DNA of 64,000 nt, from contig OZ020255.1 of assembly GCA_963971285.1 (NCBI GenBank), forward strand, positions 10,746,931-10,810,930, written 5' to 3'. Shown here piece after piece: positions 31,201 to 64,000 of this stretch; the stretch's first letter is position 1; every line of letters starts with the position of its first letter. The stretch comes from Astropecten irregularis. Lineage: Eukaryota > Echinodermata > Asteroidea > Paxillosida > Astropectinidae. The notes below the pieces were generated by a model. It saw only the letters and a program-made list of their open reading frames with translations. It was not told the DNA's origin and made no database searches. Both the position numbers and the translations under genes were made by a program.

Positions 31201-34200
31201 ATGGCGACTTGAACTCGATTGTGAGATTCTAAGGATTTTAAGCTTTCCAATAATATTTTATAACAACTGCATCAATAACACCAATATTTCATTGAATAAT
31301 CCTTTGACCTTCTGTGGAACCGTCCGTATTTGATACTTTCTGGAAACCGTTAAAACCGCAGCCGTTTGCCTGTCGCTTGTGGAATGAATAAAGAATTGTT
31401 TAATTAAATTTGAATTGAATTGAGCAGTATTTATCGATACAAGTAATAAACTGCTGCAAACTGCTCATCAGCCAAATTAATAACCTGAAATTTATAAAAA
31501 ATGCTTGGAGTTAGGAGGGCCTGACGCGTTTCGATCCTAGCAGGATCTTTATCAAAGGCTTAATGACAAGAGGACAAGAACATACATGTAAAGATACACA
31601 TAAAAGATACACATAAACAACATTTATCCAGGCAAATTCTCTGTGGACAACGGAATTCTCGTGTCGAACCTTTTTACAAATGCAAAAGCACAGAAAATGT
31701 GGATGATAGTTCTCTTGTCGTTGGAATTATCTTCACAACTTTCATGGCTTGAATAAGTTGTATGATTTACATGCACTTGCTTGCCTTTTTGATGTGGCTG
31801 GTAAAAGAGTAGAAAAGGGAAAAAAAAAGAGTTGACCTCTGTTTGACCTCATTGTGTTTGAGCACACCATTACCCTTTGCCAGAAGCATTAAAGCTCTTG
31901 TGAACTTTGGATCCCATTAGTGTCGGCTTTTTTACCGGGGCCTCCTGTATTCCGCTGTTTTTTGGTTTCCTCCCCACTCGAGCCTGCTGATATGTTTCTG
32001 GGAGTGTGACCCACTTTCGTTTGAAGTGTTTGAAACACTTCACCAGATCATAAACCTTTTGGGTGCCAACAAAAAATCCTGAAGTGTCACTGTGACTCCT
32101 GTCAGAGTCACAACCGTCGTTAGTCCGATACGACCACTCAAGTTGAAAAATTGTCAGACTCTTCAAAACTCTCGACTAGCATTGGTATCACTTAAAGGTA
32201 GTATCATACTTTGGTAAGAGACCAAAACAAAAATGTTCACAGATTTACGTATAACTTACAGGGTATGAAGATGGTGGTGGAAGAAACATACTGTTAAAAT
32301 ATTTCCGCCTGAAATAGTGTATTTATCCAGAAATTAGTCAAACAACAACCGAAAAGAGAAAACACTTAAGAAATACTGTGGCCGTTTTTCACTGTTTTCT
32401 CAAAAAGTGGGCAACGTATGGGACTGAAATTTGCACAGATGACTGTTACTGTATCTTCCTTGTTATTTCTGCCCATGAATCTGTCTTTCATTGACAAAAA
32501 CCAAAGTATGATACTACCTTTATAACCTAAAGGTAGCATCATACTTTGGTTTTAGTGGATAAAACAGCCTTGTTCATAATTTGATTTGCCATGGAATAAA
32601 AACAAACCTGTGAAATGTTCAGCTCAATTGATCAATGGAAACAGTAGAACGGTATTTTGTTTTATCTGTGAACATTTTTGTTTTGGTTTCCTACCAAAGT
32701 ATGATAGTACCTTTAAGATTTGGGTTGTTTTGGGTTGTTTTTTTTTTTGGGGGGGGGGGGTGGTCGGGTAGTTATTTTACAGCTTGAACCGTAAAAGAGC
32801 TAAATATTTGGGGAAATTATTATCTTGTACTTAGAACCCAAACCATTCCAAATGTTTATGAATCCATATTTTGCTATACCAGATTTTGAAGTACTTAGAA
32901 CATATTATAAAGGGTTCATTACACAGAACTTCACTTTGTGGCTTGTTGGCCTCAACTTGGCCCACGTCCAAAACCTGTGCCTATAGGCCGATCCGACAAC
33001 ACGATATACTGTCGGCCATTACTGCAGTGTCCCCGCCTGCCTTTTGTCCGGCAACAAAAGAATTTACGTTCCACTGCACTCTATAATTGTTGAAATGTAA
33101 TCATTTGTTTGCCCCCAGAAAGATTTTTACATTGATGTCTGCGAAAGACTCTGGTACACCTTTGAATGTTGCTGTTACACCTGCATCTCTGTGTACCCAA
33201 AAATCTAAAAAATTGTGTCGATTTGGGGCCAATGCTCAAGGGCTGCATGTAGTAATGGTCTTGTTTTTGTACCGTTTCTATTGCAGCAATTTTTCCCGGA
33301 GCAGATGCTCGTTGACGAGGAGGATGGCGACAGCCCCACGCTAAGCAGCAAACGGCCCAAGACGCCATGGTTGCTGGTAAGAAATCAACAAGGTCAAACA
33401 GAAGCTCGCTGGCCTTTAATACTCACGATGTGGCTTCTGCGTTCATGATTGAACATTTTCATTTCAGTGATGCCAATCCTGCCAATATACCCAATTGCAA
33501 TTACTTTCTCATTTGAATTTTTTTAAGCGCCATGGGGGTTTACAAAACTGAGGCTCAGGCTCAAGCTCCATTTTATGAATCCATTCTGAAATAACAGGTG
33601 TCAAAATAGAAGCTTCTGGCTTTTGTTCAGAAGTAAATCATCTGGTTTGAAAAGGAAAACACAGCCTCAGCTTCAATGAAAAAAACACAACCTATATTTT
33701 CAGTATATGGATGACTGTACTGGAGCCCGAGCCTAAGCCTCGAAGAGGCCCTGAAACTCATTTAGGGTCAATCTTAGTGACCCTATACAATTCCACATAC
33801 AAGCTTTTCTAATTTCTTTTTTCTTGTTCTATTTTTTTTTAAGGATTTACTGTCAACGGCAGACAAGATTCCTGAGATTCAGGGCTACCTCCATGTGAGG
33901 GAGGGCCACAAGAAGTCCTGGAAGAAGATGTTCTTTCTCCTGAGGGAATCGGGACTCTACTGCTCCAGCAAAGGCAACTCCAAGGTCAGTGAAGAGCAGG
34001 TGTGCTCTGACAAAATAAAACGAGGCACAAGTCTCCCAATAAATTACAAGTCATTCAAAAATTGTTGCAAGATGCATATCGCAAAGAATTTCTGATGTTA
34101 AGAAAGATGCGAGGCTTTGCATGGTGACAATTGGTATGTGGATCGGTTTGCGGAAACACCATGTAATAATCGTTCGTACTTTCGCACTTCTATATCGTTC

Positions 34201-37200
34201 GCACTTCTCGCATTTAGGACTCAATGTTTCGACTAGTCTGCTCTAGTCCTCATCAGGAGCCCTTTCTGATGTCCACAGAGATATCCTGGTTATGTCAAGA
34301 TAAAGACACAAGTGATATTCAAAAACTAACCGAGTCACTCGTTGACCTTGAACTTGATTTTGCCACACGCTTTTAAAACTGAATGAATCTGCATTTCTTT
34401 GACAAAAACAAAAGTATGAAATGACCTTGAATTCTTCTCGGCAGGATCCAAGACACCTTCATTTCTTTGTGCAATTCAACGACGTGAACATTTACCAGGC
34501 CACCAACGCCAAGAAGAAATTCCACTCTCCGACAGACTTCATGTTCTGCACCAAGGTACGTCCTGCGTTGCCAGGTTTATACCTTTTTTGTCATTCTAAT
34601 AAAACCCTACAATTCTAGAAGTGGATTTTGGTGGATGTAGGATTAACGGTTCAGTCGAGACACTTACGTTGCGTTTTTTTTTTTTTTTTTTTATTATTCT
34701 CAGCCGGCCAAGGGCAAATCAGATCTCAAGGACCTGAAATGTTTCTGCGCCGAGAGCGAGAGGTCGCGGCAGTGCTGGCTGGCCACCATGCGTCTGGTCA
34801 AGTACGGCTCCTTGCTACGGGAGAATTACAACAGCGCCATGCACAGGACGGCCAAGAGCCGGGTGGCCGACAGCGACAATGCCATGAAGGTAAGAGAGTC
34901 CTGGTTGTGTGCGATAGAGGGCAGGCTTTGTGGTCAGCTCGTCCGTTTGCTTCATCAATATCCCCACCGTTATTATGTTTGGGTTTATGCTTGGAGTTAG
35001 GTGGGCCTGACGCATTTCGATCCTAGCAGGACCTTTGTCGAAGGGAAGATCTAAATGGGATCGTTATCAAAGGCTAGTCTTCGATAAAGATCCTACTAGG
35101 ATCAAAACCCATCAGGCCCTCCTAACTCGAAACATTTCATTTCAGGTCATTATTTTGGCTTATGAGCAGTTTGCAGCAGTTCATTACTTGTATTGATTAT
35201 GTTTGGGCTAATTAGACAGCTCAAATTGCCAAATTTGAAATGCCCATGAATAAATGCTTCTATCAAGTTACGTTCTTTTTTAAGAACTTTTTAAGAACAT
35301 GGTGCCATTTTTCTTTCTGTTTTTTATTAAGTTAAAATCAAAAGCTTTCTTCATTTCAGGTAGAGAATAGCATTTCAGGTAGAGACATTTTCACAGCATG
35401 TTCCTACCATTACCCTCTTAAAACCCCGAAAGTTATCCGTAAATCTGGGAACATTTCTGTTTGGGTATGTTGCCAATCCTGTACTGTAACTTTACAAATC
35501 CAACCTGTATTTTCAGGACATGAAGAATTGCACAGAGCGAGCTGCAATGGATTTCTCAGGTAACCAAGGCCGGGTGATAGACAATCCGTCCGAGGCAATC
35601 GCCATCGCCAGACAAGAAGGATTCAACTGGAGGGTGAGTACAAAAGCCAATCGTTTGTTTGTCTATGTGATAGACGCACTCCTACTGTTGGGCGAGCTTG
35701 TCTATAGTAAATAGTTGCTGCCGCACGAAATTGAACAAAAGTATATGAGACGTGTGATTTTCTCGGTTTTTCATCATGTTTTCAGGAATGTTTGCGCTGT
35801 TTACAATCACAGCCCTATTTAAGAATGTAATCATAAACAAGCCAAGATAATTAACAATATGGGGCACTGCAAACATAGAGCTGGATAGCTCAGTTGGTAA
35901 GAGCACTGATACAGTATTCCTGGTTTCAGGTTTGAATCTTGCTCCAGTCAATAGCGTTCCGCACTAATGACGTCACACCATGCATGCACGCGCACACATA
36001 CTCCCACTCACCACACGTTTGCATATGGCCGGTTGCAATGTTTGTCTGAGGTTCGGTGCTATTTTTAGCGCAAGTGTGCAGCGCTATTTCCTTTGTTCAC
36101 CTTTCAATGACAAAAGCCACCTTGTTTTTGGAATTGTTGATTTGCAGAAGCGCGGCAACCAGCGTTCCTTTGAAGGACCTTCTTTGACAAGTCCACGGCA
36201 GTCCAATTCGGGCAGTCCCCGGTTTGTCTTCAACCCTCTACACAAGGATCTTCACTCGACGGGCAGTCATAGTCCGCAGCCAAGTAGTCCAAGGCATAAT
36301 GGCGGCAGCCCGAGAGGAGGTGCAGGGCACGGGAACAGTAGCCCTGCTGGCCACAGAATAGGTGGTTTCAGATCAGGTTAGTAGCCTTGCTGGCCACTGG
36401 CTGGTCAAGATTCAGGTTGAGTTAGTAGCCTTGCTGGCCACTGGCTGGTCAAGATTCGGGCTGGTTAGTAGCCTTGCTGGCCACAGACTGGTCAAGATTC
36501 AGGTTGGGTTAGTAGCCCTGCTGGCCACTGAGTGGTCAAGATTCAGGTTGGGTTAGTAGCCCTGCTGGCCACTGAGTGGTCAAGATTCAGGTTGGGTTAG
36601 TAGCCTTGCTGGCCACTGAGTGGTCAAGATTCAGGTTGGGGGAGTAGCCCTGCTGGCCACTGACTGGTCAAGATTCAGGTTGGGTTAGTAGTCTTGCTGG
36701 CCACTGACTGGTCAAGATTCAGGTTGGGTTAGTAGTCTTGCTGGCCACTGAGTGGTCAAGATTCAGGTTGGGTTAGTAGCCCTGCTGGCCACTGACTGGT
36801 CAAGATTCAGGTTGGGTTAGTAGTCTTGCTGGCCACTGACTGGTCAAGATTCAGGTTGGGGGAGTAGCCTTGCTGGCCACTGAGTGGTCAAGATTTGGGT
36901 TGGTCCATCCTTTAAGTAGCTGATTCTAACCACCTTTATACCTCTCTGGCCTCCAACAAGTTGATTAACTTCCATTTCTTTTGTATGGTTTGACTGGCAG
37001 GTGTCCATATGACCCAGCCCTGGTTCCACAGCGGTCTCAGCCGGGAGCAGACCCACGAGCTCTTTGCCAAGAAGGGCATGGTGGACGGTATGTTCCTGGT
37101 CAGGGAATCTCAGAGGATCGCAGGTGCCTTCGTCCTGTCCTTCAGCTTCAGCCAGAAGGTCAAACACTATCAAATCAATGCAGTAAGTAGCCATCTGTCT

Positions 37201-43642: not shown

Positions 43643-45239
43643 AGTTGTTTCTTGTCTTGTAGTAAGCGTGGTCTGTTAGTACGCCTGGACCTGACAGTAA
43701 GCCAGCTTGTGAGACACGGTGCCAATCAGTAGTTGTTTCTTGTAGTAAGCGCGGTCTGTTAGTACGCCTGGACCTGACAGTAAGCCAGCTTGTGAGCCAC
43801 GGTGCCGATCAGTAGTTGTTTCTTGTAGTAAGCGCGGTCTGTTAGTACGCCTGGACCTGACAGTAAGCCAGCTTGTGAGACACGGTGCCGATCAGTAGTT
43901 GTTTCTTGTAGTAAGCGCGGTCTGTTAGTACGCCTGGACCTGACAGTAAGCCAGCTTGTGAGCCACGGTGCCGATCAGTAGTTGTTTCTTGTAATAAGCG
44001 CGGTCTGTTAGTATGCCTGGACCTGACAGTAAGCCAGCTTGTGAGCCACGGTGCCGATCAGTAGTTGTTTCTTGTAATAAGCGCGGTCTGTTAGTACGCC
44101 TGGACCTGACAGTAAGCCAGCTTGTGAGCCACGGTGCCAATCAGTAGTTGTTTCTTGTAGTAAGCGCGGTCTGTTAGTATGCCTGGACCTGACAGTAAGC
44201 CAGCTTGTGAGCCACGGTGCCAATCAGTAGTTGTTTCTTGTAATAAGCGCGGTCTGTTAGTATGCCTGGACCTGACAGTAAGCCAGCTTGTGAGCCACGG
44301 TGCCAATCAGTACGTAGTTGTTTCTTGTAATAAGCGCGGTCTGTTAGTACGCCTGGACCTGACAGTAAGCCAGCTTGTGAGCCACGGTGCCAATCAGTAG
44401 TTGTTTCTTGTAATAAGCGCGGTCTGTTAGTATGCCTGGACCTGACAGTAAGCCTGTGAGCCACGGTGCCGATCAGTAGTTGTTTCTTGTAGTAAGCGCG
44501 GTCTGTTAGTATGCCTGGACCTGACAGTAAGCCAGCTTGTGAGCCACGGTGCCGATCAGTAGTTGTTTCTTGTAATAAGCGCGGTCTGTTAGTATGCCTG
44601 GACCTGACAGTAAGCCAGCTTGTGAGCCACGGTGCCAATCAGTAGTTGTTTCTTGTAATAAGCGCGGTCTGTTAGTATGCCTGGACCTGACAGTAAGCCT
44701 GTGAGCCACGGTGCCGATCAGTAGTTGTTTCTTGTAGTAAGCGCGGTCTGTTAGTATGCCTGGACCTGACAGTAAGCCAGCTTGTGAGACACGGTGCCGA
44801 TCAGTAGTTTTTTTCTTGTAGTAAGCGCGGTCTGTTAGTATGCCTGGACCTGACAGTAAGCCAGCTTGTGAGCCACGGTGCCAATCAGTAGTTGTTTCTT
44901 GTAGTAAGCACGGTCTGTTAGTACGCCTGGACCTGACAGTATGCCAGCTTGTGAGACACGGTGCCGATCAGTAGTTGTTTCTTGTAGTAAGCGTGGTCTG
45001 TTAGTATGCCTGGACCTGACAGTAAGCCAGCTTGTGAGACACGGTGCCGATCAGTAGTTGTTTCTTGTAGTAAGCGTGGTCTGTTAGTACGCCTGGACCT
45101 GACAGTAAGCCAGCTTGTGAGACACGGTGCCAATCAGTAGTTGTTTCTTGTAGTAAGCGCGGTCTGTTAGTATGCCTGGACCTGACAGTATGCCAGCTTG
45201 TGAGACACGGTGCCGATCAGTAGTTGTTTCTTGTAGTAA
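43643..45239 (-). repeat. 83-bp satellite, 19 units, derived from the PON last exon
   Basis: Read on the - strand, each unit is a copy of the end of the PON coding sequence: YYKKQLLIGTVAHKLAYC.., stop TAA, then CAGACCGCGC and straight into the next copy. Nineteen TTAGTA (stop) positions occur from about 43675 to 45165 at 83-bp steps. Two units lack 4 bp and one has a 4-bp insertion. The series continues, after the 45240-48499 insertion, into the three units that end in the real PON exon 9. Since 83 is not a multiple of three, reading through the units passes through all three frames. Confidence 0.95.
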
Positions 45240-45259
45240 CCCTTATAGAAATATAATGG

Positions 45260-45785
45260 TGCTTGCCGGCAAGCTTACAGCAAGCTTGCCGGCAAGCTTG
45301 CCGGCAAGCTCCCAGCAAGCTTGCCGGCAAGCTGGTATTATGCTTGCCGGCAAGCTGGTATTATGCTTGCAGCAAGCTTGCAGGGTTTCAAAAATGCAAA
45401 TGAGGGCAAGCTTGCTTTTGCTTGCGGCAAGCTTGCGGCAAGCTTGATTTCAAGTTTGCGGCAAGCTTGTAGCAAGCGTGCAGCAAGCTTGCTTTTGCTT
45501 GCGGCAAGCTTGCAGCAAGCTTGTTTTCAAGTTTGCGGCAAGCTTGCAGCAAGCTTGTTTTCAAGTTTGCGGCAAGCTTGCAGCAAGCTTGTTTTCAAGT
45601 TTGCGGCAAGCTTGCAGCAAGCTTGTTTTCAAGTTTGCGGCAAGCTTGCAGCAAGCTTGTTTTCAAGTTTGCGGCAAGCTTGCAGCAAGCTTGTTTTCAA
45701 GTTTGCAGTTTTTATCCTGGTGCTTGCCGGCAAGCTTGCTCACTAGCAAGCTTGTATTATGCTTGCAGCAAGCTTGTATACCTTG
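45260..45785. repeat. Subterminal CAAGCTTG palindrome cluster, left
   Basis: Dozens of GCAAGCTTGC-like palindromes occur, including a regular 31-bp unit of about six copies (GTTTGCGGCAAGCTTGCAGC with AAGCTTGTTTTCAA). Frames through it (Leu-Gln-Gln-Ala-Cys repeats) are not genes. Confidence 0.9.
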
Positions 45786-46029
45786 CATGGCCATTAACAG
45801 GTGGAGAAAATACTCTATAAAGATTTTAACTGCAATGAAACTCTGGGCAATTTTATTATAATAAAGTTTACAAAAAATTTATTGAAGCACTTGTTCACAT
45901 TTACAGGGATGTGAGTGGCCACACAAACACAAAATCTAAAAACACCAAGGAAACGCTGAAATTTCCTATACTTTTGTACACAGCAGGTATACATAAAAAC
46001 CTGAAATTCTAAAATTCTTAAAAACGTCA

Positions 46030-46590
46030 ATCTTGTCCCGCCACTAATTGGCTTCAAGATTGAATGGCAACTTCTTGATAAGGTGCGTGTTCTCGCTGGC
46101 ATTGTCGAACACTCCCAGGCTACATGTAGGTGTGGTACGTACCACACTGTGGTGGCTCGTGCTGCATGGACTTTCTCCAGAAAAATCAGAGAAATCTCTT
46201 AGGCCCGCTGAATCTCTTGGTGATATCCTTGGCCACTGTCACAGCTTACTCGTGAAAGCTGTACTGACTACGCTGCTAGCTGTTTCCGTATCTCTCCGTC
46301 AGCACCTCTCTTGCCCTGATGTACATATGCTTCCTCCGTGCCAATGAGCAGGTAGTGCTCGACGAGATGCTGTGGCTTTCCGGTTACATACTGATGAAGG
46401 AAGTTTAGCTTGGTGATGTCTGCATCAAGGGGTTGGCTGTTGATAAGCGAATTGAATGAATTTCGGCACAGGGGATATTGCAGCTGTTCTCTATTTAACT
46501 CTGCTAGTTGGGAGATGCACTTTTCAAGCACTGACGATATCGTCATCCATCTAAATTTCACTCTGGTGATGAGACTCTGCAGCACTTAAT
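46030..46590 (-). pseudogene. Decayed BEL/Pao retrotransposon gag (DUF1759-like) fragment
   Basis: On the - strand the frame at 46585-46290 contains 'SLINSQPLD', 'KLNFLHQYVTGKPQHLVEHY' and 'EEAY'. After a frameshift come 'AREVLTERYGN' and, further on, 'NASENTHLIKKLPFNL'. This order is typical of the gag-like DUF1759 domain of BEL/Pao retrotransposons. Frameshifts and stops break it, no protease or reverse transcriptase is visible, and no LTRs were found. It is a captured, non-functional relic inside the 3.26-kb element. Confidence 0.65.
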
Positions 46591-47989
46591 TTTGCTGGCT
46601 GTAGTTGTTCCAGCTTTTTATCCCTCTCTATCCTCATTGCTTCAACCTTGGTGGTCGCCTGCAACTCCTCTAGCTTCAGTTGCTTTTCTTTGTCGGTAAA
46701 CTCCAGCTATTCACTCCAGACTTCCAAAAAGATGTATATTCTCAATATATTCCACCGAATTACGAAACAGGGAGTCACTTGAATGTAGTGGCACATGTGA
46801 TTCAGCTATCTGCAATTTAATAATACAGAACAGAGAAAAACAATAAGACAACTTGTCTTTGTGTACATAACAAATGCAACTTTGCACAATGCTCCATAAA
46901 TACACACGTAAAAAAGCACAATTTATCCAAACAAAAGTAGGCCTCTGGCCAAAATCACTTGAAATAATGGTCAAAACTATAATCAAAGTTACTAGCAAAC
47001 AATAAAGAAATATAAAGAAAGGTTAACTTACCAAGTTGGGGTCTCTATAGGGTCTCAATCAGGGTGAATAAGGAAGAAGAAAATGTTGGCTTTGAGTCCT
47101 ACCTCCATGTGGTTGGTTATACACTGTGACAGTGGACAGTGCTGACAAAATGGCTACTTGTATACATGTGGCATACCAGAGGTCAGTGTGGTCACTTGAC
47201 ACCTGTGGCATTCCTAAGATAAGTTTGTTTACATTAACTGTCTAATCCTCTTGCACACATGTTTATTGGAAGAAACACTGTGCTGGCTAAAACAATGAAT
47301 ATGCATATGACCTGAGCAAGCTCTTTCAATGAAAAAACTAAAGGAAAAATCTTCAAAAATAATACAGAGATAAATGAATGACTAATAATCCTAACTAATA
47401 ATAAACAGTGGTGAATACAATAACAAGGCACTTGACAATTTAAAACACAAAAAAAAACAAGTCATCCAAAAGCTTGGCAAATCATGAACTATATATTGTA
47501 ATACTAGCCGAACCCTCACTGCACAGCCTGCTGCTGTGACATTACTTTAAATTATAAAATAAATGCAGATCAGTAAAAATGTAGAGCTAGACCTTAAACA
47601 ATTTTCTTTGAATCCTCATAGGAATTTGGGACAATTTTCAAAATACAATAACTAAACTTTTCATACTAATAATTTATGTGTAAGTATGCAGGACTCTTGA
47701 TTAAAAAACTTAATTGCCAGGAATTCCATAGGAAGAATTAATTTAATAGAAGATAGAACTCTTGATTAATTAATTGACCATGCAGGTTGATCATATCCAA
47801 ATTTAATTGATAAACTCCAATATCATGCTTTTTGATTTTAAATCCTGGCTTTTTATGTCTGGGAAAACTTTCAAAATCAAATTACTTTATTAATTATCAA
47901 AGTAATTAAACAAAAAGGGGTGTTTGATAATTCTGTCTGGTTGGGTCCTAATTGTGCAGTTAATTGTTTGCATCCATATGTTTCTCATG

Positions 47990-48480
47990 GCAAGCTTGCA
48001 AGCTGACAGCAACTTGGTTGCAAGCTTGCAGCCAACCATGCAAGCTTGCAGCCATATTGCTGCAAGCTTGCAAGCTGACAGCAACTTGGTTGCAAGCTTG
48101 CAGCCAACCATGCAAGCTTGCAGTCATGATGCTGGCAAGCTTGCAAGCTTGCAGCCATGATGCTGGCAAGCTTGCAAGCTTGCAGTCATGATGCTGGCAA
48201 GCTTGCAAGCTTGCAGCCATGATGCTGGCAAGCTTGCAAGCTTGCAGCCATGATGCTGGCAAGCTTGCAAGCTTGCAGCCATGTTGCTGGCAAGCTTGCA
48301 AGGTGACAGCAAGCTGCGCGCTGATCAATACAAGCTTGCCGCAAGCTTGTTGGTAAGCTTGCATAAGCTTGCAGGCTTGCCAGGAGCTTGTCGGGAGCTT
48401 GCAGAAGTACCATACAAGCTTCTTTAAGCTTGCCGCAACCTTAATAAGCTTGCCGCAAGCTTAATACTAGCTTGCAGCAA
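47990..48480. repeat. Subterminal CAAGCTTG palindrome cluster, right
   Basis: Two roughly 65-bp units (48000-48120) are followed by about six 31-bp units GCAAGCTTGCAAGCTTGCAG plus (C/T)CATGATGCTG, then looser GCTTGCCGCAAGCTTG copies. It mirrors the left cluster in motif but not in unit order. Confidence 0.9.
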
Positions 48481-48499
48481 TCTTAATTTTCTATAAGGG

Positions 48500-48755
48500 A
48501 AGCGTGGTCTGTTATTAGTATGCCTGGACCTGACAGTAAGCCAGCTTGTGAGCCACGGTGCCGATCAGTAGTTGTTTCTTGTAGTAAGCGTGGTCTGTTA
48601 GTACGCCTGGACCTGACAGTAAGCCAGCTTGTGAGCCACGGTGCCAATCAGTAGTTGTTTCTTGTAGTAAGCACGGTCTGTTAGTATGCCTGGACCTGAC
48701 AGTAAGCCAGCTTGTGAGCCACGGTGCCGATCAGTAGTTGTTTCTTGTAGTAAGC
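48500..48755 (-). repeat. 83-bp satellite, gene-proximal 3 units of PON copy A
   Basis: Stop-codon positions are at 48515, 48598 and 48681. The last is the genuine stop of PON exon 9, so the array starts inside the coding exon. The 48515 unit has a 3-bp insertion (GTTATTAGTATG) that is also found in one unit of the other PON array (60944). Confidence 0.95.
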
Positions 48756-48857
48756 GCCCGATGACGAGCTAGAAACCTGTCTACCGTCATCCACGTAGGC
48801 TTCCCTGACCTCATAAGAGTATGGTGCCTGCTTGGATGTCAGGTGAATATGCAGTAC
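48681..48857 (-). CDS. PON copy A exon 9: C-terminus and stop
   Basis: The acceptor CTAATGACAG|GTACTG and the stop TAA at 48683-48681 bound this exon. LLIGTVAHKLAYC aligns with PON1 'LLIGTVFHKALYC' (Cys353), followed by a five-residue extension. The last 70-odd bases are the founding unit of the 83-bp satellite. Confidence 0.94.
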   Translation of the reverse strand, partial: VLHIHLTSKQAPYSYEVREAYVDDGRQVSSSSSGAYYKKQLLIGTVAHKLAYCQVQAY

Positions 48858-51800
48858 CTGTCATTAGGAACAAGACCAATGTTCAGATCAGCTACCATTG
48901 CCTTTCTGGTCAAATTGTTTTTAATAGTCTACGTACACAGCTTTTGAGATTATCGTAATCACACAAGCTGAATGAAAATGTACCACAAGTACATTTGTAA
49001 ATCTTCATTAACCCTAACCCTTGACATTTTCCACACAAGACAAGAGCCGTTCACCTCACATTACCAGGTACAGTCTCCACAGAGGGACTGGATCATAAAC
49101 CACATATGTTACCACACAAACCACACTGTGGTATATTGTGGTATTCAGGTACCACACTTACCACATCAAAAACCCTGTGTGGTAAAGTGTGGTATGGAGG
49201 AGGGTTAGGGTTGAACTATAAACGATCATAAAAAGATATTTGCAATATTGAAATCATTTTAATACCACTGTAAACCCATGGTACAAATCCATGGTAATTT
49301 GCTATAAAATGTGTTGTTGGCATGGTTTTACCATGGTAACCGTTAAACCATAGTTACTAAATAGCAATTCTTGTATATGTTTATTTATACCTGTGATGAA
49401 CATGGTTGGTTCATATCATTGTAGTGTAACGTCATCTCATAGACATCCATTTGACACCCCACCCATAGGTCTCCAGTTGCCGAGTCCACGTAGATGTTGT
49501 CCAAAATAGTTCCTAGATTAATTACCTGAAACGATTTACAATAATATTGCGAATTATTACCTGAATGATTCATTTTGGAGACAATATAAAAACGCGTATT
49601 TTGTCTGTCTAATTGAGAAGCGTAATGCGTTACGCATTTCTTGTTCCTATTCCTATGCACCAGAAAGAGTTGAAACATTGAAACAGGTAATTATAATAAT
49701 ATTGACTGGCATTACTTTCGGGAGATACCACATATATTTCCCCCACTAGACCTCGTCTTCGGCTCGGGGCAATATGAGACTAGTTTGGAAAATATATGTG
49801 GTATCTCCCTCAATGCCAGTCAATATTATATAATAATTCCCTGGAGTAGCTCACTGATTGAAACAACCTGAACAGAGAATACCACAGGTACTGCCTAGGA
49901 GAAAATAGCTGCACCAAAAGTTGCCCCCCCCCCCCCCCCACTCAAAAATCAAAGTCCAAACTATAATGCTGCTTCAGATTGCTACAAATTGAGCCAAATA
50001 CAGCCCAATAATTTGAAGCACTCAATATGTGACTTATGAAAACTGCTCATGAGCCCCATTTATTTTTCATCATATCTTGTTTATCTGTCAAAGTGGTTTG
50101 TGAGATAGGCATACAGATTCAATGCAGATTCTCATTTAATATCAGTAATTAAGGTCAGAAAACAATCAAATCCTTTTGCCAACCTGAACGGCTTTCAAGG
50201 AATGGTCGGAGTTTCGCTCGTACACGGTTATTGCTCCTTCCACAGGACATGCAACATAAACATACCTAGGACAAAGAAACAATTTAAGCTTTGTAATGAT
50301 TTATAGGATACTTGAGTCTAGACCCCAGGCACTGTGACTTTCAAACGGAACTTAGGGTATTTAGTATTTATTTCATTTCTTGGGAAGAACAAGTTACAAA
50401 GCACAAGAACAAGAACAACAATTAACATTTTCAGTAGAACAGGACAAAACAAATACATAACTATGTCATGTACATAAGAATCCAATTAGCTCCGGAAGGA
50501 TTGCCCAAAAGAAATTATTCCTGTCAAAGGGGCTCTCCAGACTAATTGAATTAAATAAATATAAATGAATATAAATAATCATAAATTACAAATAATTTAA
50601 ATAATAATAAATGCAAACAAAATAACAAGAATTCATTCAGATAAAGCACAGGGGTTCTCCAGATTGATTGAAATTAATTACATAAAAATAAATATAAATT
50701 TAAATAAAAATAAATTTCATTCACACGAGGGGCTGGCTTTGGAAACTGACAAAAGTCCACATTGGGACACAATTTTACAGCACCACGGGACTAACCCCGA
50801 TCCGGTTAAAGGTAGTATCATACTTTGGTAGCATACCGAAACAGAAATCTTCACAGATTTACTTATAACTTACAGGATATAAAGATGGTGATAGTAAAAA
50901 CATACCGTTTAAATTTCTTAGTGGATTTGGGAGATGTTCGGAGGTGAATTATATATGACAGGTTAGAACAGAACAAAGAAATAAATTGATATGGTCAAGT
51001 TTTGAATGATGCTCAAGTCAAATATATATACCCACCTCCCGTCCGGAGACATATTGATTCCGTTCAGCTCAAAACCCCTCCCTACCACGACCTGGGCCTT
51101 GCCAGTATCCATCTGGTAGAATGCCACGTTGCCCCAGGGAAACTTCATCAACCCCTCCAGGTATCGCATGATGTATTGGGTGTTGTAGCCGTCGTTGGTG
51201 AAGTAGAATGAGTCGGGGCCTACTGCCACCACATCGTTGACGCTGTATTTCAGAGATTCAGTATCATTTGAAAACTGTTTAATTGCTTTGTTTTGTTTTT
51301 TTAAGTTTGTGGAACATTGGTGATATGGCACTAGTTCCTCCTCCTAATTAACCAGTCAGTAACCATTTTTATCAGAACTGCCAGCTGCTGATTTTTTCTA
51401 TTCAACAAGTGTCATCAGATACAATTGTGAGTCCTGCGTCTAAGATTGAGACTTTGAGTCACCGTATTTCAAGTTTGAGTCATATGGTTTAATTTTGAGT
51501 TACTCGGTTCAAGTTTGAGTCACACAGTTCAAGTTTGAGTGATATGGTTCAAGTTTGAGTCACATATGGTACAAATTTTAGTCACTGAGTCACAAGGTTC
51601 AAGTTTGAGTCACATATGGTTCAAGTTTGAATCATGTGGTTCAAGTTTGAATCACATGGTTCAAGGTTGAGTCACGTGGTTCAAGTTTGAGTCACATGGT
51701 TCAAGCTTGAGTCACGTGCACGTGGTTCAAGCTTGAGTCACGTGGTTTAAGATTGAGTCACGTGGTTTAAGTTTGAGTCACGTGGTTCAAGCTTGAGTCA

Positions 51801-54800
51801 CGTGGTTTAAGTTTGAGTCACGTGGTTCAAGCTTGAGTCACGTGGTTTAAGTTTGAGTCACGTGGTTCAAGCTTGAGTCACGTGGTTCAAGTTTGAATCA
51901 CGTGGTTCAAGCTTGAGTCACGTGGTTCAAGCTTGAGTCACGTGGTTCAAGCTTGAGTCACGTGGTTCAAACTTGAGTCACGTGGTTCAAGCTTGAGTCA
52001 CCTGGTTCAAGCTTGAGTCACGTGGTTCAAGCTTGAGTCACGTGGTTCAAGCTTGAGTCACGTGGTTCAAGCTTGAGTCACATGATTTAAGTTTGAGTCA
52101 CGTGGTTTAAGTTTGAGTCACGTGGTTCAAGCTTGAGTCACGTGGTTCAAGTTTGAATCACGTGGTTCAAGCTTGAGTCACGTGGTTCAAGCTTGAGTCA
52201 CGTGGTTCAAGCTTGAGTCAAGTGGTTCAAACTTGAGTCACGTGGTTCAAGCTTGAGTCACGTGGTTCAAGCTTGAGTCACGTGGTTTAAGTTTGAGTCA
52301 CGTGGTTCAAGCTTGAGTCACGTGGTTCAAGCTTGAGTCACGTGGTTCAAGTTTGAGTCTCAAGGTTCAAGTTTGAGTCTCAAGGTTCAAGTTTGAGTCA
52401 CACGGTTCAAGTTTGAGTCACATTAGTGGTACAAATATCAAATGCCAATTTGAGTCACTGAGTCACAAGGTTCAACTTGAGTTTTAGTCACATATGGTTC
52501 ATGTTTGAGTCATGTGGTTCAAGTTTGAGTCACTTGGTTCAAGATCGAGTCACATATGGTTCAAATTTGAGTCACAATTAGGTTCAAGAGTATGGTCAAG
52601 ACTTGGTCAAGACAAAAGTCAACATACTTGCAGTCGATGGAGTAATTCTGTTTTGGAAAAAAAAAACGAATTGTGATGTTTTTCCATATCAAAAGGGCGA
52701 ATTATTTGAGTACAGGTCACTCATGTCCATGTTCAGGTCTCATGAATCAGTCAGTCATATTACCTTGTCATGAGTGGATCCGTAATGGACTTCAGATACT
52801 TGAGGGATCGTTTCTCCATGTCAAAGCTGAATACTTCAATGGCTTCGATCTGGCGCTTGTGATTCACAACAAAAACAGTCGCTAGAAAAGAGAATTCAAA
52901 CCTCATATTAGAAGGCGTGTGTTGGAATTAAAACAATTTCAGGGGACGATTTCACAAAGCCCTACAATCGATCGTAACTCAGAGTTACAAAGGGTAACTC
53001 ATCATAGGGACCTATCCTATGTAGGACTGCAATGTATCATAACTCCTACGATTGATAGTATTAGTTACAATGATAATATGCAAATTAGGCTTGCCCTTCA
53101 CCGACTTGGATGAGCACTGTATACTCAGTGCCAGTGGCGTCACCAGACTTTTGAGTCTGGGGGGGGGGGGGGCACAAGGAGGGCACTTACAATTGTTTGG
53201 GGGGCACTACAATACATATTATATTCTTTTTCACCAACCCAAATCTCAAATGGGGGGGCACGTGCCCCCCCAACCCCCCCCCCCCCCCCCCCCCCCCCTT
53301 GGCGACGCCACTGCTCAGTGCTTGTGAGTGCACGTGAAAAATATCACGTGCTGGCTCAGGTGGGATTCGAACCCACGACCTCATGCTTACTAGTGCAGAT
53401 GCCATACCGCTAGGCCACTGAGCTAGCTGGGGTCATCAGCAGGGTGATTCAAATCCAATATCGCGGCGGGTACGTTATGATGAGTTTGGTGAAAATTTAC
53501 CCAAGGGGTAATAATGAATGGACTTTGCATGTGGGCCATTAATTTCAGTTACTCACTCTGGGTTGGGTCCTCCCAAGCACTGATACCGTGGGGTCTGAAG
53601 TCGTCATGATCGAAGCTTCCCGTGATCGGTAGCTCGGTCACGTTAGCGTCAGGGTTGTTGAAATCAAACAGGTAGATATGACCCTTCCAGGTCAGAGCCA
53701 CTGGATCCATACCAATGCCCATCTTTGAAAAGGTTATGCCCTACCCAAAGAGAAGAGGACACCACAATGTTAAAACTCATTCACTGTGTACTGACTACTT
53801 CTTTTAAATCTGTATTTGACAAAAGGAAGAGAATGCACAGGAAACATGGTTATAACTGGGGCCAATTTCATAGAGCTGCTAAGCACACTTAAAATTGCTT
53901 AGCACAAAAATAGCTTGCCCAATAAATACAACAAACCACCATCAAAAATTCTACTTGATATTCATGGTCAGTGAACAACAGCCAAAGAACAATTGCAAGT
54001 GATAGACAACACACGGAAATTGTAAACCCTGTTTTTACTAAGACAGAAATGTCATGCTTAGCGATTATTTTGTACTATTAAAGCACCTCTATGAAAGGCG
54101 CGTAATAAAATGTAATAATTTAATTTTTAATTTAATTTCAATTTATGAAATTGGCCCCAGCTCTATCATCTTGATCCCAATAATTTGTTATTCTTTGCAG
54201 TCCCGAGTCGGCAGTGTGCATGTGTGGAGTTTTATCCATTCTGGGGCTGCTGTTTTAAAGATACTATCATACTTTGGTGGGAAACCAAAACATGTTCACA
54301 GATTTACCTATAACTTATAGGCTGTAAAGATGGACCTGTTACAAACATACCATTAATTTTTTTTTTTCGTTGTGGGAAAATGTGTTTTTGTGTGGTAATC
54401 ATCAAATTCCCACAAGGGAAACAGACTGGTTAACTTGAATTTCAAAGGGCATGTACAACATTGGTAACAAACCAAAACAGAAATGTTAAAAGATTTACAT
54501 AATAACTTACAGATGATGGTGATGGTAGAAACCTACTGTGACAATTTTTCTGCCTGAAATGCTGTATTTTTCAAGAAATGAGTTTTAAAAAATACAAACC
54601 GAAAACAGTTTTGATCTCCAAAATCAAAACTTCACAATTACAATTACAATTTTGCGAAACAATTGCAATGGTTTTTTGCTTTAAAACTTCACAATGGGAG
54701 ACTTTTGAGAACCGGTCTTCAAGTCAACAGCGCACGCGTACACAATTGTGAGCATGTGCGCGTTGTTTTGCACGTGCGCTGTTGACTTGAAGACTGGTTC

Positions 54801-59063: not shown

Positions 59064-59633
59064 GATGTGCACTGTGAAAATATTCAATTTCGACGGTCCG
59101 CAACGATAAAATGACATCATTTCTGATTACTGATAAAGACATATCAAACAGAGACACTCAGTTACCATCTTTCAAAAAATGTAAACTTTTATTTGTTTGA
59201 AATAAAAAGAAGACTCTGAGCAAGGTCATTGAACTTTTGGGAGTGTACATCCGCAACAAAAATCTTAAATGTACTTTTTGCTCAAAAAAGTATTTTGACT
59301 CATTTTGAGTCATTACAGCCTCAAAAATGAGAAAACATGAATGTTTGATAAAAACGCATATAATTTTAATAAACTAGATGCTTTGACCTTCAATATGATT
59401 TAAATTAAGGTATTTTAACGATTTTTAAATTTTGACCATTTGGTTGACATTATTACGGAACTGCCCATGTCAGACCTAGGGTTACGAACATCGCAACTAT
59501 AGGAAATCGTAGCAAAATGCACACGTACAATTATAACTGCCAACTTCATCCTTACCTTCATATCATCTCCCCCACCGTTCATCCCCCCCCCCCCCAAAAA
59601 AAAAAAAAAACTTAAAAATTACTTGCTACCAAT

Positions 59634-59940
59634 TTAGGTAATATCATACTTTGGTTTTTGTTAAAGAAAATATTATGGATTCATGAACAAAAATATCAAG
59701 GAAGATATTACAGTAACAGTCATCTGTGAAAATTTCAGACACATACGTACGGTGTCCACTTTTGGAGAAAACAGTGAAAAACGGCCATAGCATTTATCTT
59801 TTTATTTTGGTCACTGATTTTACTCTTTTCTGGATAAATACAGCATTGCAGGCAGAACCATTTTAACGGTATTTTTGTACCATCATCATCTTTATACCCT
59901 GTGATTTATACCCTGTTTCAGGTTGCTACCTAAGTATGCT
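59634..59940 (+). mobile_element. TTAA-MITE, decayed right end
   Basis: AGGTAATATCATACTTTGG starts it, the centre has CATCTGTGAAAATTTCAG and ACAGCATTGCAGGCAGAACC, and the end is CTACCTAAGTATGCTC. Confidence 0.65.
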
Positions 59941-60732
59941 CAATTTTTGGCATGCACAGAATTAAATTCTATACTATAAGGCATATAAGCATATATGTAA
60001 TGAATATTCAAAATACCACAAAGTACAAGAAACTTGAAATATCTGAAATATCTGCTCAAAATGACATAATAGGCCTACATGTAGTAAGCTTTAATTGCAG
60101 TGGGATTTATTTTATTGCATGATACATCAAATATATCTCAAATAATATAAATTACAAATCTATTAAAATTCACAATTTTCTATTTTTTGTTCCCGATTCT
60201 TTAGGATAGATTGTCTAGTTTTGAACTTGAGCAACATTTACAAATCACAAATTAAAATAAACAGTAAATTAATTGGAAAGAGCTTCACAGATGCTCACTA
60301 TTAACCTCATCAAAAAATGCATCACAAATATTAGTTATTATATCATGAAAGTTACTAGCTGTTCCTGCAATTTATTCAGTATGAACTCAGAAAAATCCTA
60401 CATCCTTTCAAAACACTTCAAACGGACTACAAAATATTTATCTCACACTGAACACAGAAAGAGTTTCTTTTTTGATGATATTTCTCTCAGCCCTCAAGCT
60501 CCTGAAATCTGAATTTCGTGGGGCTCCCATATCTGATGTCACGAAATCACACAGATTTGTCTGCTGCCCCCATTGACAAAATTCAGGGAATCTCAATTTT
60601 GGGGAGCTTGCGGGTTGAGCATGTTGAGAGAAAAATCATTGAAAAAAACTTGAAAAGTGTTGAACATCCTCTTTAATAATGGAAAATGTATTGCTAATGT
60701 TAGACCCTTGTATAAAACCACGATATGAACCA

Positions 60733-61352
60733 TGGTGCCAATCAGTAGTTGTTTCTTGTAGTAAGCGTGGTCTGTTAGTATGCTTGGACCTGACAGTAAG
60801 CCAGCTTGTGAGCCACAGTGCCAATCAGTAGTTGTTTCTTGTAGTAAGCGTGGTCTGTTAGTATGCCTGGACCTGACAGTAAGCCAGCTTGTGAGCCACG
60901 GTGCCGATCAGTAGTTGTTTCTTGTAGTAAGCGTGGTCTGTTATTAGTATGCCTGGACCTGACAGTAAGCCAGCTTGTGAGCCACAGTTCCAATCAGTAG
61001 TTGTTTCTTGTAGTAAGCACGGTCTGTTAGTATGCCTGGACCTGACAGTAAGCCAGCTTGTGAGCCACGGTGCCAATCAGTAGTTGTTTCTTGTAGTAAG
61101 CACGGTCTGTTAGTATGCCTGGACCTGACAGTAAGCCAGCTTGTGAGCCACGGTGCCGATCAGTAGTTGTTTCTTGTAGTAAGCACGGTCTGTTAGTATG
61201 CCTGGACCTGACAGTAAGCCAGCTTGTGAGACACGGTGCCAATCAGTAGTTGTTTCTTGTAGTAAGCGTGGTCTGTTAGTATGCCTGGACCTGACAGTAA
61301 GCCAGCTTGTGAGACACGGTGCCAATCAGTAGTTGTTTCTTGTAGTAAGCGC
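60733..61352 (-). repeat. 83-bp satellite, 7 units, at the 3' end of PON copy B
   Basis: Stop-codon positions are 60773, 60857, 60944, 61027, 61110, 61193 and 61276. The last is the real stop of copy B exon 9. The unit at 60944 shares the GTTATTAGTATG 3-bp insertion with the copy A unit at 48515. There is no transposon interruption here. Confidence 0.95.
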
Positions 61353-61452
61353 CCGATGACGAGCTAGAAACCTGTCTACCGTCATCCACGTAGGCTTCCC
61401 TGACCTCATAAGAGTATGGTGCCTGCTTGGATGTCAGGTGAATGTGCAGTAC
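61276..61452 (-). CDS. PON copy B exon 9 and stop
   Basis: The acceptor CTAATGGCAG|GTACTG bounds it, and coding is near-identical to copy A exon 9 to the stop. The exon and its immediate intron (to about 61490) match copy A at 48681-48890 much better than the neighbouring introns do, suggesting recent homogenisation. Confidence 0.93.
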   Translation of the reverse strand, partial: VLHIHLTSKQAPYSYEVREAYVDDGRQVSSSSSGAYYKKQLLIGTVSHKLAYCQVQAY

Positions 61453-64000
61453 CTGCCATTAGGAACAAGACCAATGTTCAGATCAGGGGTCAATTTCATA
61501 GAGCTGTTTAAGCACCAAAATTTGCTTAAGCACCAAAAATCTTTAAAACCTTTAATATTAAATCGGTATTGGGGGGGGGGGGGTCGTACCTGGGATGGAG
61601 AGGGTTGGGTGAAATCCTTGAAGTGTAAGAGTGTCTGGTAGCCAATCAGATGGCATCCCACCCATAGATCCCCCGTTGCCGCGTCAACGTAGATGTTATC
61701 CAGAAGAGCTCCAAGATCGATAACCTGAAACAATTTAGAATAATCCAATTTGGAACAATTCCAAGGACCATTTGAAAGACCTTTTTTCTTACACTAGTCG
61801 GAAATTTCACGACACACTTGAGTTAAAAGTATCCCTATCAAAGTTAATTATACTGCAGCTAGCCATGTGCGACGTCTGTGGTTGTCTATTCATTCAGCGT
61901 GAATCAGCCCTGTACATGCAGGATGTAACGTACATTTGTTTGAATATTCATATTTTTAATAAAAATTGGCCAATCAGACTCCATTCAAAATCGGCTAAAG
62001 AGCTCATAGGCCGTGTGGTCCCGAGAGCTGAAATCTCGCCGTAGCCAGGAGTCTCGCTCGCTAAACTGGTTTCACGAGAGTTGTGTGAAAACGGAGATGA
62101 ACACCGCGACTTGACCACAAGTCTATAAGATGAGCCAAAATTGAATGCACACCCCAAATGTAACTTTACAGAAACCGCTCATAAATAAAAAAGAAAAAAC
62201 CTTAAATAAATAAATAGCCCCGGTCTTATAAACCTTCCCCCTATTCTTCTTCCATCATATCTTGCAGGCCATCACGCTGTTCTGTGAGATATACTTTTGT
62301 TTTGTAACTCAGGGGGCAAAATTTTCATTCGAGCACTACGTAAGAAAAGAATGAAATCTTTCTGCCAACCTGAACGCCTTTCAAGGAATTGTCGGAGTTT
62401 CGCTCGTACACGGCAAGCGTTCCAACCACAGGGGATGAAACATACACATACCTATTGAGAAAGATCCAAACAAAGCTTCAAATGCATAATACATGATTTG
62501 TTGAACAGCACTGCCACTTTGAATAATCCAATATGGACATAAAATAACACACCTTTGAAAATTTGAGCTCATCCAGACATCTGAGTCACGAGAAAATAGC
62601 GAAAAACCAACTCGATTTTTCTTGTAAAACTTAAAGAATGGTTTTGATCTTACCCGAGATCAAAACTGTTTTCGGTCTTTGTTTTATTCATTTCTGGATA
62701 AATACAGCATTTCAGGCAGAAATGTTTTAACGGTATGTTTCTACCAGCACCATCTTCATATCCTGAAAGTTATACGTAAATCTGTGAACATTTCTGTTTT
62801 GGTATGTTACTAATCTTGTACTGTGCCTTTAACAATGTAATGACTGATACCTCAAAGATTTCCAAGGAAAACAGCAGCAAATTATGTTCTACTGAAATCC
62901 AGGAAAAAATATATATACCCACCTCCCGTCCGGCGAGATATTGATCCCGTTCAGCTCAAAACCCCTCCCTACCGCGACATGGGCCTTGCCAACATCCATG
63001 TGGTAGAACGCCACGTTGCCCCACGGAAACTTGAGCAACTTCTCCAGGAATCGCTTGATGAATTGAGTATTGTAGCCGTCGTTGGTGAAGTAGAATGAGT
63101 CTGGGCCTACTGCCACCACATCATTAACGCTGTATTTAAAAAAAATGCCAAATATGGGACCTAAAATCAGAGACCTTCTGGGTTTTTGTTTATGGAACTT
63201 TGGTGAAATGTTACCAATCTCTCATTCGACCAACAAAAGAAAATTGCCTGTCCTAATTTGGTTTGTTTCTTTTCTCTTTTCAAGTCCAGCGTTTCAAGCC
63301 TGAGTCACATGGTTCACGTTTGAGTCACATGGTTCACGTTTGAGTCACAATGTTCAAATTTGAGTCACAAGGTTCAAGTTTGAGTCACAAGGTTCAAGTT
63401 TGAGTCACAAGGTTCAAGTTTGAGTCACATTGTCCACACTTGAGTAACACAGACATGAGAGTCCCAAGTCACACGGTTCAAGTTTGAGTCACACCGGTCA
63501 AGATATAAGTTGCACGGTTCAAGATTGAGTCACATGTTTCATGTTTGAGTCACAAGATTCAATTGCGTGTTCCAAGTCACACGGTTCAAGTTTGTGTCAC
63601 ACGGTTGAAGTTTGAGTCACGTTTCAAGTTTGAGTCACATGGGTAAATACTGAGTTTTTTTACATTAAAAGGGTGTGTACTACATTTTCAAAACACGTTA
63701 TTCATGTTTAGGCTCTTACCTTCTCATGAGCGGATCCGTAATGGACTTCAGATACTTGAGGGATCGTTTCTCCATGTCAAAGCTGAATACTTCAATGGCT
63801 TCAATCTGGCGCTTGTGATTCACAACAAAAACAGTCGCTAGAAAAGAGAATTCAAATCTCACATTCAGAAGAATCGTGAATCACTTGGAATAAAAACAAG
63901 TTCTGACATTTCAGTTTGGGATATGTGGGTCTTTTCAGTTACCAGTACTCACTCTGGGCTGGGTCCTCCCAAACGCTGATGCCGTGGGGTCTGAAGTCGT
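61276..64000 (-). CDS. Paraoxonase family protein copy B, partial (exons 4-9)
   Basis: This is a second PON gene, tandem to and upstream of copy A, cut by the right edge of the window. Exons in transcription order: 64000-63953 (end of exon 4), 63837-63720, 63129-62923, 62451-62370, 61724-61590, 61452-61276. Exons 5-9 have the same lengths and phases as copy A (118, 207, 82, 135, 177 bp). Conserved: RPHGI (His), VVNH, VNDVVAVGPDSFYFTNDGYN, ELNGINISPDG, LDNIYVD, DLWVGC and the C-terminal Cys. It differs from A in, for example, exon 7 (VSSPVVGTLAVYE) and exon 8 (HLIGYQTLLHFKDF). No stop or frameshift is seen in the part present. The two stop codons are 12.6 kb apart. Confidence 0.92.
61483..61575 (+). 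repeat. Partial GGGGTCAATTTCATAG element
   Basis: GGGGTCAATTTCATAGAGC with TTTAAGCACCAAAATTTGC matches the left arm of 16843-17069. It ends in a 14-G run directly before the exon 8 donor. It is absent from copy A at this place, so it inserted after the duplication. Confidence 0.65.
61590..61724 (-). CDS. PON copy B exon 8
   Basis: The acceptor TTTCAG|GTTATC and the donor TCCCAG|GTACGA bound this exon. VIDLGALLDNIYVD and TGDLWVGC are conserved. Confidence 0.94.
62370..62451 (-). CDS. PON copy B exon 7
   Basis: The acceptor TCTCAATAG|GTATGT and the donor GTTCAG|GTTGGC bound this exon. YVYVSSPVVGTLAVYERNSD is the most diverged exon relative to copy A. Confidence 0.92.
62477..62831 (+). mobile_element. 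TTAA-type element, hybrid of two MITE families
   Basis: The left part GCATAATACATGATTTGTTG with CATCTGAGTCACGAG matches 24374 and 26446. The right part CATTTCAGGCAGAAATG, ACGGTATGTTTCTACC matches the AGGTAGTATCATAC family. It ends CTTGTACTGTGCCTTTAA. It lies in PON copy B intron 6. Confidence 0.65.
62923..63129 (-). CDS. PON copy B exon 6
   Basis: The acceptor AAATACAG|CGTTAA and the donor GGGAG|GTGGGT bound this exon. It encodes VNDVVAVGPDSFYFTNDGYN with TQFIKRFLEKLLKFPW and GRGFELNGINISPDG. Confidence 0.94.
63290..63650 (+). repeat. 20-bp minisatellite in PON copy B intron 5
   Basis: About 16-18 degenerate units of TTCAAGTTTGAGTCACAAGG type. It is at the same intron position as the large array in copy A, but shorter, more degenerate and mostly without the CACGTG core. 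Confidence 0.88.
63720..63837 (-). CDS. PON copy B exon 5
   Basis: Same splice sites as copy A (TTTCTAG|CGACTG; GAGAAG|GTAAGA). The coding is nearly identical through TVFVVNHKRQIEAIEVFSFD, differing at the end (DPLMRS). Confidence 0.93.
63953..64000 (-). CDS. PON copy B exon 4 (3' end only)
   Basis: DFRPHGISVWEDPAQ, then donor AGCCCAGA|GTGAGT; the 5' part lies beyond the window. Confidence 0.9.

Follow-up and report, generated by a model that had tools for sequence, protein, structure and literature searches.

The 64,000-nucleotide stretch of the sea star Astropecten irregularis analyzed here (contig OZ020255.1, positions 10,746,931 to 10,810,930, forward strand; hereafter the window) contains two tandem paraoxonase (PON) genes, which we call a and b, and in each of them the last coding exon runs directly into an array of 83-bp tandem repeats made from the coding end itself, stop codon included. 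We consider it fairly probable, judging from the sequence patterns described below, that this is a stop-spanning array comparable to the exon-edge "mirages" of amphioxus, that it arose from the last PON exon, and that its units have been exchanged both with the coding slot, meaning the first unit, which the gene uses as its coding end, and between genes a and b.

Both genes lie on the - strand, ~12.6 kb apart. Their assignment to PON rests on sequence match over the six 3'-most exons: the joined exons of gene a (53740 down to 48681) matched residues 82-354 of 355 of PON1 (PDB 1v04; E 3.2e-54) and scored 62.7 bits against the Pfam family Arylesterase (PF01731; cut-off 21.3), while gene b, which matches all six gene a exons, was assigned via this match and PF01731, the direct PON1 comparison pertaining to gene a only. 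In both genes, sequence within a few bases of where the protein matches end is compatible with GT-AG introns. These ends served as exon coordinates in the comparisons between the two genes and lie as much as ~5 nt past some splice sites.

Cut into units on the - strand, the repeat comprises the last 24 codons of the PON gene, the stop codon and 8 bp beyond it; on the coding strand it reads GCTTACTACAAG...GCATACTAA CAGACCGC and translates as AYYKKQLLIGTV[A/S]HKLAYCQVQAY-stop, followed by 8 nt. Tandem Repeats Finder returned the 83-bp period at 43655-45239 (19.1 copies, 95% match), at 48500-48756 (3.1 copies) and, behind gene b, at 60726-61351 (7.5 copies). Unit cutting gave 22 units (3+19) plus one partial unit for gene a (43655-48755), the fourth being clipped by an insertion, and seven units plus one partial unit (b8) for gene b (60726-61350), that is, 29 full units in total. 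A 14-base core of the unit occurred 28 times in the window vs. 0 in 100 shuffles. In genes a and b alike, the last exon runs without interruption to its end in unit 1.

A preliminary description of the gene a region, made from the sequence alone, had proposed an 83-bp array of at least 22 units (19 + 3) derived from the PON coding end, with the gene-proximal unit as the real coding end. Tandem Repeats Finder, unit cutting and contiguity with the PON-matching exons confirm the array, the unit count holds for gene a, and the coding end is unit 1 in both genes; the whole structure is larger than described, the second array behind gene b having gone unlisted. The seeding exon, numbered 9 there, is better called the last exon. 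That every unit repeats the coding end is true of most units only, since four of the 29 full units (a9, a10, a13 and a15) carry frameshifting indels and a Ser codon replaces the Ala codon in nine. The gap between the two array pieces listed at the time corresponds to a 3.26-kb insertion element with terminal inverted repeats, an apparent 2-bp target duplication (AA, + strand), and subterminal foldback-like arrays rich in GCAAGCTTGC near both ends. A 105-aa frame within this element (45240-48499) showed a weak match to DUF1759 (19.9 bits, below the family cut-off of 25.4).

The array seems confined to this locus. In genome searches, whose match counts are lower bounds, a 201-bp array query had at least 15 matches and a last-exon protein query at least 26, all inside the window, which has ~30 units. 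The flanking sequence, 40 kb on the left and 60 kb on the right, contained no more units and no six-exon match beyond the exon of gene b at the window edge. Among the matches listed, the array is thus a minisatellite of this locus and not a genome-wide satellite, and the earlier term "satellite" should be replaced. The Arylesterase family had three matches in the genome, namely gene a, gene b and a third PON on contig C16 (258001-268000, - strand), in which the family match runs across two stops, perhaps from reading into an intron. The C-terminus of this third PON is recognizable and ends in ...NKMLVGTVQGQMLYCELLAY-stop, and no tandem repeat was found in its 10-kb stretch; the segment encoded by the unit also aligns with YKGKLLIGTVFHKALYC at the C-terminal end of PON1. 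Given that the third PON has this C-terminus yet no array, and that the unit was matched only at this locus, the last PON exon is the founder of the array, as previously proposed; therefore, the array is a new addition to an old coding end. The reverse history, in which a PON gene received a satellite insertion and came to use it as coding end, had been named in the preliminary description as the outcome that would speak against a coding founder, together with PON C-termini dissimilar to the unit. We regard this history as scarcely credible, given that no listed match of the unit lies outside the locus and that conservation of the encoded segment extends to PON1 structures, the segment also being recognizable in the array-less third PON.

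Differences between genes a and b are unevenly distributed over their exons. Fourfold sites differed at 4/18, 1/14, 7/28, 1/10 and 8/12 positions in the five other exons, ending with the exon before the last, and at 0/27 in the last exon (p = 8e-6 against the exon before it; p = 0.0016 against the 21/82 over the five other exons). Nucleotide differences amounted to 3/171 in the last exon vs. 58/597 in exons 5-8 (p = 0.0003). The near-identical block has a sharp border: it starts 34 nt inside the intron, and further out the introns fail to align. Because neither the preceding intron nor the sequence after the arrays aligns between the two genes, the last exon and the array were probably transferred together from one gene to the other. 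Homologous 3' flanks behind the arrays were considered and rejected, as the single long match there (333 bp, 72%) belongs to a dispersed repeat. Counting itself and its partner, this repeat (59620-59910, - strand) is represented by 37 matching pieces across the 164 kb surrounding the locus, and it also occurs near the last exon of the third PON.

Coding and non-coding units also have variants in common. The coding unit a1 has exactly the sequence of b3, a non-coding unit, and a TAATAA insertion is present in a3 and b5 only, among all units. When a1-a3 were aligned to b1-b3, b2-b4, b3-b5, b4-b6 and b5-b7, there were 11, 10, 6, 6 and 12 differences, respectively. The array of gene a contains both versions, Ala and Ser, as well as both Ile codons seen at the two coding ends. 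Over the 75 coding positions of the 29 full units (the partial units, that is, the end of the gene a array and b8, were left out of the counts), 7 of 10 substitutions were synonymous, an excess with p = 0.001-0.015 across six mutation models that included transition and CpG bias. Recurrent substitutions were synonymous in 5 of 6 cases (p = 0.002-0.017, four models) and single-occurrence substitutions in 2 of 4. Adding the degenerate partial unit b8 changed the ratio to 8/13 (p = 0.002-0.025, four models), and dropping two substitutions, one in a4 that belongs to the border of the inserted element and one in a9 located at an indel, changed it to 7/8 (p ≤ 0.002). The simplest reading of these small numbers is that the older variants went through the coding slot and the young ones did not. 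The earlier suggestion that the array could feed gene conversion into the coding end thus gains indirect support from the a/b block, the identity of a1 and b3, and the synonymous bias.

These observations can be combined into the following scenario. A stretch of the last exon (24 codons, the stop and 8 bp of 3' untranslated region) would have been duplicated in tandem and grown into a local minisatellite. As the coding end is itself a unit of the array, the first, units could then move in and out of the coding slot by unequal exchange or slippage, and an exchange between the tandem genes would have copied the last exon and array of one onto the other. Selection would act solely on the unit occupying the coding slot, and the variants that spread would for this reason be mostly synonymous. 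The direction and number of exchanges, as well as repeated passage through the coding slot, are what we infer from these patterns.

Several results weigh against this scenario. The fourfold-site contrast weakens when the exon before the last is set aside (0/27 vs. 13/70, p = 0.017), and the shifted register b3-b5 has an equal in b4-b6, with six differences each. Genes a and b are also alike in exon 6, with 97.4% identity vs. 73-90% for exons 5, 7, 8 and 9. High identity is therefore not unique to the last exon, and the mosaic of the two genes is not confined to it. This second alike exon lies near another array, an intronic 20-bp minisatellite (TTGAGTCACGTGGTTCAAGC, 51454-52574 and 63293-63642) located in the intron after exon 6 of both PON genes; gene conversion may be attracted by arrays. 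Seven sites underlie the synonymous excess, three of them CpG-type changes, and four non-coding units have frameshifts, from which it follows that the units themselves are unconstrained. Finally, the data represent sequence from one assembly, one haplotype and one species. An alternative is a one-off event, in which the array formed once, reached the neighboring gene in a single copying of array and last exon, and expanded without feedback, the synonymous bias being due to chance and CpG mutation. A single transfer accounts for the sharp-bordered block, the three CpG-type sites include the two most frequent of the seven, and the weakest variants of the synonymous test gave p ~0.015-0.025. We nevertheless find this account rather unlikely, as on its own it leaves unexplained why a1 equals b3, why the unshifted alignment has 11 differences vs. 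six at best, and why the Ala/Ser and Ile codon variants circulate in the array of gene a.

Units could alternatively be functional, as alternative terminal exons or as repeated elements of the 3' untranslated region that regulate PON mRNA. In favor of such a role, TACTAAC, a perfect branch-point word, is present at the stop codon in 27 of the 29 units. In gene b, neither AATAAA nor ATTAAA was found from the stop to the array end, the first ATTAAA lying 599 nt past the stop, and an mRNA polyadenylated at such a signal would consequently contain the array of gene b. In gene a, the first AATAAA lies 790 nt past the stop, within the inserted element. If these signals are used, gene b mRNA would carry the whole array and gene a mRNA three units only, with the array lying within the 3' untranslated region; this agrees, indirectly, with the earlier proposal that the array could alter the length of that region. 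However, visual inspection, made without scoring of splice sites, showed no acceptor with a pyrimidine tract at a usable distance from TACTAAC, and alternative terminal exons were rejected for want of a convincing acceptor. Furthermore, 83 is not a multiple of three, and four units are frameshifted, making functional units improbable. An assembly artefact, with repeats collapsed or expanded, is less probable still. While errors are common in repeat arrays and the published assembly lacks full phasing, its HiFi reads have a mean length of ~9.9 kb (22.66 Gb / 2.30 million; PMC11480709), which exceeds either array, including the 5.1 kb of gene a with its insertion. Additionally, the window contains no N, and the two arrays are separate and have unit-specific variants.

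A bolder extension of the favored scenario is possible, though the balance is against it: the array may be a store of alternative gene ends, with units shuttling between slot and array, purifying selection on one slot cleaning the whole array, and the array supplying synonymous and occasional Ala/Ser variants to two paralogs. If true, the minisatellite and the coding terminus that seeded it would undergo concerted evolution together.

The closest precedent that we encountered is that of the amphioxus mirages, described as minisatellite-like tandem duplications over exon-intron borders in BflGb6/BflGb9, Adh3, TnC and PGBD5, with regular splicing despite the array and, in the globin gene BflGb6, concerted units and a length difference between haplotypes (PMC3087553, PMC3902484). 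The preliminary description considered exon-seeded arrays unusual, which remains true, but mirages provide a precedent over exon-intron borders. The PON array resembles them in being a tandem repeat extending over a coding-exon edge and in having a founder copy that, judging from its conservation, is in use. In contrast to mirages, which cross exon-intron borders and duplicate splice sites, it crosses a stop codon into downstream sequence; it also differs in its 29 full units, in being shared by two tandem paralogs, in its probable transfer tract and in its sea star host. In human segmental-duplication genes, variable internal tandem repeats have been reported as minisatellites that lie within the exons of recent paralogs or at their exon-intron borders, with units >60 bp common and gene structure altered (PMC2812944). 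Half of these lie in coding sequence and the others in untranslated regions or non-coding RNAs, and in the accessible text of that study none is described as seeded by a stop-containing exon end, the term "stop codon" being absent from the main text (PMC2812944). The PON family itself (PON1, PDB 1v04) provides the host genes; the array is no part of the family, and the third PON lacks one. Our limited literature search met no report of exon-border minisatellites in sea stars or other echinoderms, a weak negative. A stop-spanning array in two paralogs offers a natural test of the co-evolution of a non-coding array with a coding exon, and it is a warning for annotators that such arrays can mimic repeated exons.

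Table 1. Coordinates of the PON genes, arrays and associated features in the window.
Feature	Position	Strand	Details
Gene a array, gene-proximal part	48500..48755	-	a1 (coding), a2, a3 (a3 with TAATAA); Tandem Repeats Finder, unit cutting
Gene a array, distal part	43655..45239	-	a4 (clipped) to a22 plus partial unit; 4 frameshifted units; Tandem Repeats Finder, unit cutting
Insertion between units a3 and a4	45240..48499	.	3,260 bp; 12-bp perfect terminal inverted repeats CCCTTATAGAAA
Gene b array	60726..61350	-	b1 (coding) to b7 plus partial b8; b5 with TAATAA; Tandem Repeats Finder, unit cutting
Near-identical block, gene a	48756..48891	-	34 nt of intron plus exon part before the unit; counterpart 61351-61486
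Near-identical block, gene b	61351..61486	-	counterpart 48756-48891
Gene a last coding exon	48681..48857	-	VLHIHLTSK...AYYKKQLLIGTVAHKLAYCQVQAY stop; final 75 nt in array unit 1; protein match
Gene b last coding exon	61276..61452	-	same protein end, Ala to Ser; final 75 nt in unit 1; protein match
Gene a exon before last	49391..49525	-	73.3% nucleotide identity to gene b
Gene b exon before last	61590..61724	-	
Gene a upstream coding matches	50184..53740	-	53740-53552, 52876-52763, 51247-51035, 50264-50184; ends up to ~5 nt off splice sites
Gene b upstream coding matches	62370..63832	-	63832-63719, 63134-62922, 62450-62370
Gene b further coding match	64136-63948	-	across window edge

The window contains a second array at an apparent exon edge. 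At 36376-36903 (+), 12 copies of a 44-bp unit start where a probable exon ends, its open frame reaching 36378, and repeat the tail of that exon along with a donor-like CAG|GTTAGTA. The unit scored 39 against the tail of the adjoining open frame vs. a maximum of 28 in 2000 shuffles, the open frame before the array had no Pfam match, and the two matches listed in a genome search were both in the array itself. This array is an apparent mirage at an exon-intron border. Elsewhere, a PH domain match falls in an open frame (33781-34092, +) that belongs to an unrelated gene. The mitochondrial COX1, judged by eye, reads best with the echinoderm code, in which AAA is Asn; a GFP-family search gave no match, a weak negative because its control was not matched either, and an amphioxus source was rejected. 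Outside the window, a COX1 match without TGA codons was found on a contig of its own (C131:32162-33484), perhaps that of a bacterial contaminant or associate, and a further, mitochondrial-type COX1 copy with seven TGA codons lies on contig C25.

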